The notes beneath the pieces are model-generated. The model made no database searches, had not been told where the DNA came from, and saw only the letters and a program-made list of their open reading frames with translations. Made by a program: the position numbers and the translations under genes. Positions 24,675 through 28,995 of a stretch of 64,000 nucleotides of DNA are shown here, in pieces (positions within the stretch are counted from its first letter, which is position 1; each line of letters begins with the position of its first letter). Source of the stretch: Oceanospirillaceae bacterium (lineage in GTDB: Bacteria > Pseudomonadota > Gammaproteobacteria > Pseudomonadales > Oceanobacteraceae); contig PBQA01000013.1 in assembly GCA_002724925.1 (NCBI GenBank), forward strand, positions 620,001 through 684,000, given 5' to 3'.

Positions 24675-25505
24675 ATGGAACTTGATTTACCCCTGATTCT
24701 TATGGTGGCCACGGGCCTGACGGGTCTCATTGTATTGGTCGACCGACTTTTTCTTCGCCGCAAACGTCAGGAGCGCATCGAAGCACTCGAGCAGAGCGGT
24801 GCGCCTCAGGAAAATATCCTGGAAGCGACAAAAGAGCCTTTCCTGATTGATCAGTCCAGGCAGTTCTTTCCTGTACTTGCACTGGTGTTTGTTCTGCGCT
24901 CGTTTGCTTTTGAGCCTTTCCAGATTCCCTCTGGTTCAATGGAACCTGGTCTTCAGGTCGGTGATTTTATTCTGGTCAGTAAATTCAGCTATGGTCTGCG
25001 TGTGCCGGGCAACGGATCGACTATTATTCCAGTAGACCAGCCTCAGCGTGGTGATGTGATGGTGTTCTTCCCGCCGGAAGACTCTCGTTACTTTATTAAG
25101 CGTGTTATCGGTTTACCCGGTGATCATATCGTTTACAAAGATCTGCGCCTGACGATCAACGGGGAAGCGGTGCCAACCGAGGTGTTAGGCGGCAAGCCTG
25201 CCTACGCGCCGACTATGGTGTTGGGTGAAGAAACTATGGATAACGCCACTCCGGTTGTGAAATGGTTACCAGGGCGCGATCGTACTACCGGTCAGGCAGC
25301 GCTCTGGGGTGGCCCGGAGGGGGAGTGGACGGTTCCTGATGGTCATTACTTTATGATGGGTGACAACCGCGGAAATAGCGGAGACAGCCGCATGTGGGGC
25401 TTCGTGCCAGAGAAAAATATTGTCGGAAAGGCTGTGGCTGTCTGGATGCACTGGGAGTCCTGGACGAGCCTGCCGTCCTTTGACCGCGTAAAAGTGATTG
25501 AGTGA
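24675..25505 (+). CDS. lepB: signal peptidase I
   Basis: Inner-membrane serine protease of 276 residues that removes Sec and Tat signal peptides. One N-terminal helix (about 5-22), a basic loop, a second helix (about 62-77), then the periplasmic catalytic domain. Catalytic S88 is in IPSGSMEPGL and K142 in YFIKRVIGLPGD, with the GDNRGNSGDSR signature near the end, close to E. coli S90/K145. It is shorter than the E. coli enzyme (324) but full-domain. lepA is not adjacent. A small membrane-peptide gene overlaps its stop codon. Confidence 0.95.
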   Translation: MELDLPLILMVATGLTGLIVLVDRLFLRRKRQERIEALEQSGAPQENILEATKEPFLIDQSRQFFPVLALVFVLRSFAFEPFQIPSGSMEPGLQVGDFILVSKFSYGLRVPGNGSTIIPVDQPQRGDVMVFFPPEDSRYFIKRVIGLPGDHIVYKDLRLTINGEAVPTEVLGGKPAYAPTMVLGEETMDNATPVVKWLPGRDRTTGQAALWGGPEGEWTVPDGHYFMMGDNRGNSGDSRMWGFVPEKNIVGKAVAVWMHWESWTSLPSFDRVKVIE

Positions 25506-25618
25506 TGACAAAAAAGAAACCATGCAAGTTCTGCCAGCGATCGCGCTGGCTTCTTGTGGTCACCATGTTGGCCATGATGCTGGGTGTGGTTTTAGTTAAT
25601 CATTCGACCTTCGGCTGA
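25505..25618 (+). CDS. 37-residue membrane peptide with CxxC
   Basis: The ATG at 25505 overlaps the lepB stop (ATGA) and opens a 37-codon frame ending at 25618. The peptide has a basic head (MTKKKPCKFCQRSRW) with a CKFC pair, then one hydrophobic helix (about residues 16-32) and a short tail (NHSTFG). The layout suggests a single-pass inner-membrane peptide with the cysteine pair in the cytoplasm. It is translationally coupled to lepB and is followed by a terminator. I do not recognise the family. The tight overlap and coherent composition favour a real gene. Confidence 0.6.
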   Translation: MTKKKPCKFCQRSRWLLVVTMLAMMLGVVLVNHSTFG

Positions 25619-25717: not shown

Positions 25718-25748
25718 ACAGGGTTGGCCAGCAGAGCCCTGTTTTTTC
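25718..25748 (+). terminator. terminator of the lepB operon
   Basis: ACAGGG pairs with CCCTGT across a 13-base loop, followed by TTTTT and C, about 100 bases after the small membrane-peptide gene. Confidence 0.65.
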
Positions 25749-25779: not shown

Positions 25780-26175
25780 ATGAATCTGACGAGACATATC
25801 AAAGGCAAAACTCTCGGTCTGGTAGACCGATTCCTTCCGGTTAAGCCGATTGAGCGACCAGCAGAAGAGCAGACTCTGCTGAATCGCGAATCCCGCCGAA
25901 TGCATCTTTATTACTCGAGACAGTGTCCATCATCGATATCCGTGAAACGGTATGTTGAGCGAGCCGGCCTGCACCCAGTGACGAAAGAGGTTGAGCGTGC
26001 GGATGCTTACCGAAACGAACTGGTGAAAGGCGGCGGTGAAAGCCGTGTTCCCTGTCTGAGAATCTGCACCCGCAGTGGCGACCGCTGGATCTACAGCCCT
26101 GAAGCCATTATCAACTATCTTGAAAAACGTCTGGGAAAACTGGGCAGCTGCCAGTCACCCAAAGCACCTCTATAA
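25780..26175 (+). CDS. glutaredoxin-like protein with CPSS site
   Basis: Protein of 131 residues with a thioredoxin/glutaredoxin-like fold at about residues 40-122. The strand MHLYYSRQ leads to C49-P-S-S, where the second active-site cysteine of CPxC is Ser. A cis-Pro motif RVPCLRI follows, then a C-terminal helix (SPEAIINYLEKRLG). The basic N-terminal 40 residues are outside the fold. It resembles monothiol glutaredoxins or GST N-terminal domains, so it probably acts through glutathione. No strong Shine-Dalgarno precedes the ATG. Confidence 0.75.
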   Translation: MNLTRHIKGKTLGLVDRFLPVKPIERPAEEQTLLNRESRRMHLYYSRQCPSSISVKRYVERAGLHPVTKEVERADAYRNELVKGGGESRVPCLRICTRSGDRWIYSPEAIINYLEKRLGKLGSCQSPKAPL

Positions 26176-26317: not shown

Positions 26318-28369
26318 ATGATCCGACTCACAATTCTCTTCCTGCTGCTGACCGGGTGGCAGGTGGGGCATGCTCAGACCCCGCCAGCGCTGGAGTGGGC
26401 AGACCTTCATATGCTGAACGGCGACAGCCACAGGGTCATGTTGTTGGGCTCGCGTTCGGCACCGTATCTGATGCTCGAAGACGGCCGCTACCTGGTCGAG
26501 CAGCAGGGTATTTATTATCTGGCTCGTCTGCAGGATAAGCGCTATGCCACCAGTACCGGTGAAGAATTTGGCCGGTCAGCATCGTATGAAGAGTCTGAAG
26601 AAAAAGAGTCTCGTCAGGCGAGCAGTACCGTAAGCGCCCAGGCCAATCCGCCGGCTCGTACTCCGTACCGCTATCAGGGTGGCGCCTTTGAACAACCTCT
26701 GGTGGTCGTCCGTGTTGCTTTTTCTGATCAAGGGTTCGAGTACAGTGATGCTGAGATCTCCTCACGAATTTTTGGCGCTTCTGGGAGTGTCTCTTCCTAT
26801 TTTTATGAGGGGTCAGGTCAACAATTCCGCATTGTGCCTGCCAGTGAGTCCGACGGCACCAGTGGCGATGGCATTATTCGCACAACGCTTAGCAGCGCGC
26901 ATCCTGACTTCGGTTCCTCTTATGGTACACAGAGCCGTAACCTGGTGACATCCGCGCTTCAGGCATTGAATGGCAAGATTAACCTCAGTTCTTATGATCG
27001 CAATGGTGATTCCTGGCTCGATCCTTCTGAACTCGGGGTGATCGTTCTTGCAGCGGGTTTTGAGCAAGCGTACGCCAGCTCTGCTACAACTCATCCTCGT
27101 GTCTGGGCTCATAAGTCTTCTGTACCTGCGGTCAATACCGCTGGGGTCTGGATTTCTGAGTACACCATGTTTGGTGAGCAACACGAGCAACACATGGCGA
27201 CCATCGGTCTGATGGCCCATGAGCTTGGTCATCTCCTGTTTGACTTGCCAGATCTCTACGAGAGTATCGGGCTGGGTGAATCGATCGGTCGCTGGGGATT
27301 GATGAGCTTCGGTATCTGGAACTCTGGCGGTGGCAAAGCAGGAGATAAGCCGGCGCACCTGATAGGTTGGTCACGAGAGTTTCTGGGGTTTACTGACAGT
27401 GTGTCGGATACGGGGGGGATTTTCCTCAATTCAGCCAGTGACGGTGGTGAAGTGCTGCGTATTGATCTTGATGAGTATCGTCATGGCAAGCGCCTGATGG
27501 TCGAGAACCGAACTCGTCAGGGCTTTGACAGTGGCTTGCCTTCACCAGGTTTGATGATTACAGAGATAGATGATTGGCGAGGGTTCGGGTCATTGTCCAG
27601 CCTGACTGCGCGACACTCCCAACGTCTGGTGACCGCCGAAACCACGCATACCGGCTCGAATATAGTGACCGACAGTAGCGGCATCATGATAGAAAGCGCC
27701 TCTTCTGTAACTCTGGCTGATGGCAGGGTGACTTTGACGGCCGTTGCATCCGGTGACCGCGCTCAGCTGAATGTGCAGTCGAGTATTAAACCCAAAGGCT
27801 TTGCCATTGGCTATGACGAGCTTCCCGCGAATGCAACCTGGGGAGCCTACGGTGGTGATGGTTACGCACTGGTTACTGTACCAGTCAGTAGTGATGTTCT
27901 GAGTATTGATGGCATTGATTTCTATGCTCACGGTTCGGGTACGGTGGAATTCGGCTTATATACCAGCGCCTCACGGTACTCGGGTGAAGGGCGTCTGGTT
28001 GAGAAGAAGAGCAGTGTTCAGGAGGGCTGGAACCGCCTGCTATTTGATGCCCCGCCAGAAATCCCCGTGGATACCATCTACCTTCAGATTATCAGCGAGC
28101 CTTCGGGTCAGCACGCTCCGTTTCTGGTCGACATTCAGGGGCCCCCGAGCGGGCAGACAAAAGTGAAAGAGAGACTGGACTACGCATTTGGTGATGCAAG
28201 CTTTGATCTGAGTGTGAAGCTTCTTGTCAGCAGCAGTGACCAACCGATTGAACGTGCGCCAGCGACTGCCAGCTCATCCTCTTCCTCGTCATCTGGCGGA
28301 GGAGGCTCTATGGGCTTGCTGTGTCTTGTACTTAGCCTCGGATTGCTGAGAAGACGACCGCTTAGGTGA
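26318..28369 (+). CDS. secreted M6-like metalloprotease with GlyGly-CTERM
   Basis: Exported zinc protease of 683 residues: signal peptide (1-19, ending HAQ), pro-region, then a catalytic domain with HELGHLLFDLPDLYE from H301, the M6 (immune-inhibitor A-like) zincin motif. A calcium-loop-like DRNGDSWLD lies near residue 227. Beta-rich C-terminal domains follow, then a Ser-rich linker, SGGGGSMG, a hydrophobic helix and RRRPLR. That tripartite end is the GlyGly-CTERM sorting signal recognised by rhombosortase, and the next gene encodes one. The protein is therefore predicted to be secreted, cleaved at the tail and released or surface-attached. Confidence 0.9.
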   Translation: MIRLTILFLLLTGWQVGHAQTPPALEWADLHMLNGDSHRVMLLGSRSAPYLMLEDGRYLVEQQGIYYLARLQDKRYATSTGEEFGRSASYEESEEKESRQASSTVSAQANPPARTPYRYQGGAFEQPLVVVRVAFSDQGFEYSDAEISSRIFGASGSVSSYFYEGSGQQFRIVPASESDGTSGDGIIRTTLSSAHPDFGSSYGTQSRNLVTSALQALNGKINLSSYDRNGDSWLDPSELGVIVLAAGFEQAYASSATTHPRVWAHKSSVPAVNTAGVWISEYTMFGEQHEQHMATIGLMAHELGHLLFDLPDLYESIGLGESIGRWGLMSFGIWNSGGGKAGDKPAHLIGWSREFLGFTDSVSDTGGIFLNSASDGGEVLRIDLDEYRHGKRLMVENRTRQGFDSGLPSPGLMITEIDDWRGFGSLSSLTARHSQRLVTAETTHTGSNIVTDSSGIMIESASSVTLADGRVTLTAVASGDRAQLNVQSSIKPKGFAIGYDELPANATWGAYGGDGYALVTVPVSSDVLSIDGIDFYAHGSGTVEFGLYTSASRYSGEGRLVEKKSSVQEGWNRLLFDAPPEIPVDTIYLQIISEPSGQHAPFLVDIQGPPSGQTKVKERLDYAFGDASFDLSVKLLVSSSDQPIERAPATASSSSSSSSGGGGSMGLLCLVLSLGLLRRRPLR

Positions 28370-28398
28370 TACACTGCCTCTTTTTCAGAGGCATTGGT

Positions 28399-28995
28399 GT
28401 GCAACATTTCCTCGCATGGTCGGTATGGGTTGGTATTGGCCTTTTATCCGCTGTCGTTTTCGGTGCTGGTGAAGCGGCCACTGAGCTTTTGCGCTTTGAC
28501 CGTACAGCCGTAGAGGGCGGCGATTGGTGGCGATTACTCACTGCCCACTTCGTTCACCTTTCTTCTGGTCACCTCCTGCTTAACCTGGCGGCGCTTGCTC
28601 TGGCAGCGTATGTTGCCTCGCCCGCAACACCCTTGCGCATGCAAATTCTGGCGTGGGGATGGCTCTGTTTCGCGACGGGGCTTGGCCTGTATCTGTTCGC
28701 CGATGATCTTTATTACTACGTCGGTCTCTCCGGTGCCCTTCATGGTGCGATGCTGATCGCGATTGCTCCATCCCCATACTATTCCCTGAAAGTCCGTATC
28801 ACCGTTGTGCTTGTTATCGTCGTTAAGGTGCTCTGGGAGCAGTCGGGTTTTTACGACGACATGGCAAATGCAGAAATGGTCGGTGGCCGTACAGAGGCCA
28901 GATCGCATTTGTTGGGTGTCATTGCAGGCCTTATCTGGATAGCGCTATCACAGAGTTGGAAACACTATGAGCGAAGAAAATCCCTGGAAAACTAA
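28399..28995 (+). CDS. rhombosortase (GlyGly-CTERM-specific rhomboid protease)
   Basis: Six-helix rhomboid-family intramembrane protease of 198 residues. Catalytic S111 lies in YVGLSGALHGAM and H170 in EARSHLLGVIAG, and the HFVHLSSGHLLLNL motif is in helix 2. The GTG at 28399 has CAGAGGC seven bases upstream and is preferred; a GTG at 28366 would overlap the protease stop. Rhombosortases cleave GlyGly-CTERM tails, and the gene directly follows a protease carrying that tail. This is strong context for an enzyme-substrate pair. Its 3' end overlaps the NUDIX gene by 29 bp. Confidence 0.9.
   Translation: MQHFLAWSVWVGIGLLSAVVFGAGEAATELLRFDRTAVEGGDWWRLLTAHFVHLSSGHLLLNLAALALAAYVASPATPLRMQILAWGWLCFATGLGLYLFADDLYYYVGLSGALHGAMLIAIAPSPYYSLKVRITVVLVIVVKVLWEQSGFYDDMANAEMVGGRTEARSHLLGVIAGLIWIALSQSWKHYERRKSLEN

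Follow-up and report, generated by a model that had tools for sequence, protein, structure and literature searches.

What does a membrane peptide of 37 residues, encoded immediately behind the gene for signal peptidase I, do for the cell that carries it, and is its business with the peptidase at all? The locus that poses this question lies in a 3.97 Mb genome whose relatives are Thalassolituus and Oleibacter (the lepB of T. maritimus DSM 24913 is 96% identical), within a stretch of 64,000 nucleotides (620001-684000 of its contig) referred to here as the window. The window's own family is labelled f1, and other families bear labels of the same kind (f6, f27 and so on).

The lepB locus

The upstream protein is recognised as signal peptidase I by Pfam Peptidase_S26 (E 2.8e-52) and TIGR02227 (156.9 bits against a cut-off of 47), and none of its 276 residues is a cysteine. 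The frame behind it is as an earlier note on this DNA had described it: 37 codons, translated as MTKKKPCKFCQRSRWLLVVTMLAMMLGVVLVNHSTFG, with CKFC in its basic head and a single hydrophobic segment (Table 1). That note had the start codon overlapping the lepB stop as ATGA; the overlap is there, but it comprises a single base (TGATG) rather than four, and an in-frame GTG lies one codon 5' of the ATG. A terminator had likewise been placed downstream, and a stem-loop (25718-25742) with a T-run to 25747 is indeed seen some 100 nt 3' of the ORF, ahead of the glutaredoxin-like gene at 25780, although 25 of 200 shuffles fold equally well (z only -1.1). This hairpin is absent from the output of the automatic terminator scan, the presumed reason being a loop of 9 nt where the scan allows no more than 8. 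Within the peptide ORF, a perfect 7-bp hairpin (25533-25550, z -3.3) covers the CQRSRW codons.

Table 1. Coordinates, within the window, of the features discussed.
Feature	Position	Strand	Basis
lepB, signal peptidase I, 276 aa	24675..25505	+	Upstream cistron in f1
CxxCxxxR single-helix membrane peptide, 37 aa	25505..25618	+	ORF call, family HMM, purifying selection
Cys7 codon	25523..25525	+	Kept in 38/38 f1 peptides (CxxC required by search), also in A1 and A2
Cys10 codon	25532..25534	+	As Cys7: 38/38 f1 peptides, A1, A2
Arg14 codon (CXXC+4)	25544..25546	+	38/38 f1 peptides, Arg not demanded by search
Predicted transmembrane stretch, residues 15-32	25547..25600	+	Hydropathy; AlphaFold helix 8-36
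Terminator-like hairpin and T-run	25718..25747	+	-11.3 kcal/mol, z -1.1
Glutaredoxin-like protein, CPSS site	25780..26175	+	Pfam Glutaredoxin E 7.7e-6, 26.5 bits against a cut-off of 22.9

A conserved gene under purifying selection

The peptide ORF is a real gene, conserved and under purifying selection. When ORFs behind lepB were listed without any motif being imposed at 30 f1 loci, the window's included (L002-L031), 28 held a short frame that combines C-x-x-C-x-x-x-R with a hydrophobic stretch, the exceptions being L015 and L029. A profile (A1) built from 25 of these 28 peptides matched in 37 of 44 f1 genomes at E 0.0011 or better, every match lying on the lepB strand and no more than 170 nt past lepB. 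As to the other seven genomes, G001 and G058 gave no lepB match, in G010 the profile overlooked a peptide, G060 retains a remnant broken by N (N-masked), and G026, G028 and G059 have lepB with no peptide behind it. A repeat survey of one locus per lepB genome (n = 42), in which only CxxC and a hydrophobic stretch were required, recovered the peptide at 38 loci and an Arg at CXXC+4 in all 38; at L016 and L017 it also listed a chance out-of-frame stretch. The earlier note had asked whether the same frame would be found behind lepB in related genomes or be lost there to frequent stop codons: of the 42 f1 genomes with a lepB match, 38 have it directly behind that gene, and by position and selection the CxxC membrane peptide is real across f1.

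Selection was gauged by the Nei-Gojobori method. Variable f1 pairs of more than 85% identity gave pN/pS of 0.06-0.22, and the more distant pairs listed, in which synonymous sites often approach saturation, gave 0.22-0.44; in the part compared, L003 and L004 depart from the window by synonymous changes alone, with no amino-acid change. The frame is short and three f1 genomes do without it, as might be expected of a chance ORF or a degraded remnant, but such a reading is scarcely credible and in our view already refuted by the low pN/pS together with HMM matches (E 1e-8 to 1e-12), among 390 genomes of the order, to members of other families encoded elsewhere in the genome.

Searching f1 genomes with the profile revealed no convincing second copy, further matches within a genome having E values no better than 0.004, with the ones in G018, G022 and G030 falling within DsbB. 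The window peptide matches the family HMM at E 2.7e-18 (its own sequence being part of the profile), no Pfam family over its cut-off and no NCBIfam family, whilst a PDB profile search returned one match only, to a lone receptor helix at E 0.71. The portions of the literature reached by our searches held no description of such a CxxCxxxR membrane peptide, and within the searches made the family is undescribed and was found named nowhere. Origin from a phage or plasmid was considered and set aside, the window peptide having no match in either collection.

The peptide away from lepB

A profile search of the 390 order genomes places stand-alone peptides, at E 1e-4 or better, in f6, f27, f29, f45, f46 and f47 besides f1, and weaker ones, read individually, in f17 (2.9e-4), f38 (1e-3) and f39 (2e-3); many matches above about 1e-3 are chance or DsbB itself. 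Across the class, 16 of 369 genomes matched at E <= 0.005, the window's genome included, and 11 of the 15 others were read individually (G719, G665, G686 and G434 being left out). Three genomes of f112, in another order, have a clear peptide (E 9e-13 to 2e-8), and G735 (E 1e-4) and G556 (2e-4) have what look by eye like stand-alone peptides; G468 and G710 proved to be SCO1 fusions, and the matches in G669, G450, G502 and G756 were unconvincing on reading.

Neighbouring genes were identified by Pfam for greB and EamA and mostly by eye for the rest. The peptide gene stands beside secB and a lipoprotein gene in f27 (which we take to be Marinomonas-type), an unnamed 179-aa protein and a hydrolase in f6 (presumably Halomonas-type), greB in f46, an M28-like peptidase or EamA transporter in f47, an FKBP-type gene in f39 and a DUF4124-aspartyl protease in f38. 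A neighbour common to all families was not seen, and the peptide would therefore act alone or with a partner encoded elsewhere. TusA, encoded near the f6 peptides, was considered and set aside, lying some 2 kb off within the f6 block.

These distributions bear directly on the peptidase. The earlier statement that the peptide always accompanies LepB proved false, because none of 16 non-f1 loci (among L062-L079) has a lepB match within 3 kb and G026, G028 and G059 carry lepB with no peptide; nor was lepB found at 29 wider loci (L080-L099, L172-L180), a set that in part consists of fusions or false matches. Even in f1 the distance of the peptide start from the lepB stop varies between -1 and over 100 nt (28 loci), with overlap in 8 and a start within 6 nt in 12, and the tight overlap is a trait of some genera only. 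The companion suggestion, that the peptide modulates LepB or serves as its accessory subunit, draws on its place directly behind lepB in most f1 genomes and on the stop overlap at some; special support is missing, since the peptide occurs with no lepB neighbour and lepB with no peptide. At 4 of the 9 f6 loci the same kind of stop-start overlap (TGATG or TAATG) joins the peptide to some unrelated gene, and the Cys-free LepB of the window makes a mixed disulfide with the peptide impossible, all of which leaves a LepB modulator very unlikely. Neighbourhood within a single family, here lepB, can mislead about function.

Three invariant residues at the end of a predicted helix

Two alignments describe the family more widely: A2, with 46 rows picked by eye, and A5, with 52 unaltered rows extracted with a pattern demanding C..C...R. 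In both, the only columns invariant across families are C7, C10 and R14. The invariance of the Arg in A5 is partly built in by the extraction pattern, and the profile that retrieved the members of other families already contained C..C...R, so that the unbiased figure for the Arg is the 38 of 38 f1 peptides. In no member read is CXXC+4 a Lys, and at other head positions the two basic residues interchange (72 Lys against 72 Arg in the 38 f1 peptides, a tally that includes the out-of-frame stretches of L016 and L017; 109 Lys against 86 Arg in A5), for which reason the guanidinium group, rather than bare charge, is seemingly what is kept. Trp15, adjoining the Arg, occurs in 38 of 52 rows of A5, and most of the sequence drifts (mean column identity 23%).

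Members in A5 range from 31 to 55 aa and have a single hydrophobic stretch, which AlphaFold, given that alignment, models as one helix over residues 8-36 (pLDDT 84.4); a helix beginning at residue 8 would place Cys7 at its start. A basic head stands against a neutral tail, with mean net charges of +5.3 and +0.1 in A2 and +4.9 and +0.1 in A5, the head exceeding the tail in 45 of 46 and 51 of 52 members respectively, and the CxxC is therefore predicted to face the cytoplasm. In size, in having one hydrophobic stretch and in being tucked behind larger genes, the peptide resembles CydX, AcrZ and MgtR, none of which is known to have a conserved CxxCxxxR head.

Resemblance to DsbB

The closest likeness in residues is to DsbB, in which P-C-x-x-C-x-x-x-R likewise precedes a membrane helix: the two Cys and the CXXC+4 Arg of the peptide equal C41 (the first Cys of the DsbB pair), C44 and R48. 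According to PMC11208910, R48 stabilises the quinone charge-transfer complex, and PMC6752827 presents it as a proposed ubiquinone-binding residue. The Pfam DsbB model (PF02600) was matched at E <= 1 by 20 of 46 members. Ten members besides the window peptide were scored singly against its cut-off of 22.1 bits, which L020 (23.7) and L023 (23.0) pass, L085 equals and seven fall below, the window peptide reaching 18.0; the matches of L020, L023 and L085 span 24-25 of 148 model positions.

Homology to DsbB, tempting though it is from the Pfam scores and the residue match, was rejected as an explanation, DsbB being retained solely as a lead to a similar way of working. An hhalign comparison of the peptide with 30 f1 DsbBs scored 28.3, controls with shuffled helix columns scored 22.1-28.8 (two of the 30 equalling or exceeding the real value), and controls with shuffled heads gave 19.0 or less in 29 of 30 cases and 23.5 in the other. 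Since shuffled helices score nearly as well, the resemblance amounts to motif plus generic hydrophobicity, and homology is not shown. The two proteins also differ in build and orientation, DsbB having four helices, a second Cys pair and a periplasmic position for the pair in question, whereas the peptide has one helix, two Cys in 37 aa and a CxxC predicted to be cytoplasmic. A DsbB match is found elsewhere in all 44 f1 genomes (in G004 as a fragment at a contig end).

The peptide might nonetheless be a minimal DsbB turned upside down, with one helix and its Cys-Cys-Arg triad in the cytoplasm, passing electrons between glutaredoxin or glutathione and the quinone pool, so that glutaredoxin would do on this side what DsbA does on the other. 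We consider this quite unlikely, the two members that pass the DsbB cut-off raising it slightly.

Fusions and the glutaredoxin neighbour

The head and helix also occur as the beginning of larger proteins. In G468 and G710, two genomes of one family, a CxxCxxxR head and helix (HMM E 2.6e-6 and 2.1e-5) form the N-terminus of SCO1/SenC proteins (Pfam E 9.6e-23 and 9.4e-17), as an N-terminal anchor to which the SCO1/SenC domain is added; L175 and L180 are loci with this arrangement. In G346 the head and helix start a DUF4124-aspartyl protease, and in G293, of the same family, a stand-alone peptide gene sits just before the DUF4124-aspartyl protease gene (named by its likeness to that of G346), the corresponding loci L186 and L200 thus offering the fused form in one and a preceding peptide gene in its relative. 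In G171 and G081 the module starts proteins with a second hydrophobic stretch. SCO1/SenC and DUF4124-aspartyl protease domains are normally exported or periplasmic, and their position behind the head and helix therefore fits an N-in topology. As the matches are short, common descent of the fusions and the peptide is no more than plausible.

At all 41 f1 loci tested (39 genomes), lepB is followed by a glutaredoxin-like gene, loci without the peptide included. To gauge the association more widely, PF00462 was located in 24 genomes, of which G092 was dropped for want of a convincing peptide, leaving 23 genomes in 11 families. The peptide has a glutaredoxin gene no more than 2.6 kb away in f1, in f27 (in the order grxC-secB-peptide), in f29 (with an antisense gene in between) and in G125, alone among the four f6 genomes tested, whose glutaredoxin shares 26-33% identity and 19 invariant columns with those of f1. 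Judged by the density of such genes, a nearby glutaredoxin in 3 or more of the 10 families other than f1 has P 3.6e-4, and in 2 or more of 9, with f29 also excluded, P 0.007, the 2.6-kb radius being post hoc in both. The gene counts behind these values are off by one for G000 (7 entered, 6 over the cut-off) and G360 (12 entered, 13 over it), a difference too small to alter the outcome. No glutaredoxin was found within 2.6 kb in 7 of the 11 families (one of them on a 6.4-kb contig). Relatives of the f1-type glutaredoxin, sought by profile, occur in 166 of 390 order genomes and mostly lie far from any peptide where compared (e.g. G167, G087); the aligned catalytic Cys of CPxS is missing in 3 of 36 f1 glutaredoxin-like proteins (L024, L026, L027), at loci that keep the peptide motif. 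We take the association as a moderate hint. The CPxC site at the N-terminus of glutaredoxins and GSTs resembles the peptide in setting a CxxC at a helix start, and GST_N_3 matches 4 of 46 members weakly (best E 0.013), but those proteins have a thioredoxin fold and the peptide is predicted to have a helix only.

What the peptide may do

The explanation that we favour, tentatively, is that the peptide is a free-standing inner-membrane protein with a dithiol on the cytoplasmic face, probably redox-active, and that LepB is a mere genomic neighbour. In f1 the peptide would probably be made from the lepB transcript. Its basic N-terminal head would stay in the cytoplasm and its single helix would cross the membrane, with the CxxC where the helix begins, on the cytoplasmic side, and the conserved Arg four residues past the second Cys. 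The helix end and Arg14 may make the thiols reactive, and the dithiol could then serve as a redox switch or relay at the membrane surface, its exchange partners being glutaredoxin-type proteins of the cytoplasm and perhaps quinones of the membrane. Of the two roles floated in the earlier note, sensing of metal or of redox at the membrane, redox is somewhat favoured by the neighbouring glutaredoxins and by a pattern of residues like that of DsbB; against it, the f1 glutaredoxin persists in genomes that have no peptide, and a cytoplasmic CxxC is normally kept reduced.

The CxxC could equally bind metal, and redox is the most likely of the two by a modest margin. Metal binding or sensing at the cytoplasmic face, whether two CxxC heads of a dimer clasp Zn(II) or one CxxC binds Cu(I), is possible if rather unlikely. 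It is consistent with two conserved Cys in CxxC spacing where other conserved ligands are absent, with the module starting two SCO1/SenC proteins, a copper-related family, and with a weak match of Pfam DUF2116 ('probable treble clef') to 2 of 46 members; on the other side, the residues that separate and flank the Cys are for the most part basic or bulky, which common Cu(I) loops are not, and no recurrent metal-handling neighbour was recognised in the contexts read, most neighbours being named by eye. The peptide might instead be a small structural subunit of some membrane complex, with CxxCxxxRW as an interface anchor only, an idea that its CydX-like size and single helix and the frequent Trp beside the Arg invite; both Cys are, however, kept amid the drift of the rest, which an anchor would not need, and we think this improbable.

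Should the preferred redox reading hold, with cytoplasmic thiols exchanging with quinones or glutaredoxin, the peptide would link respiration to cytoplasmic thiol balance and may be the smallest thiol-quinone or thiol-glutaredoxin element known. The three conserved residues offer a clean target, testable by three point mutations.

Other observations

A contig of a metagenome-assembled genome labelled Paraglaciecola (L123) encodes a LepB 97.5% and a glutaredoxin-like protein 100% identical to those of the window, and is probably misbinned Thalassolituus DNA. Further along the window, at 26318-28995, lies the gene of an M6-family metalloprotease with a Gly-rich, hydrophobic and Arg-rich tail (GlyGly-CTERM-like, by eye), which overlaps a rhombosortase gene (TIGR03902, 131.5 bits against a cut-off of 84); the rhombosortase is a sorting enzyme adjoining its probable substrate, the metalloprotease.
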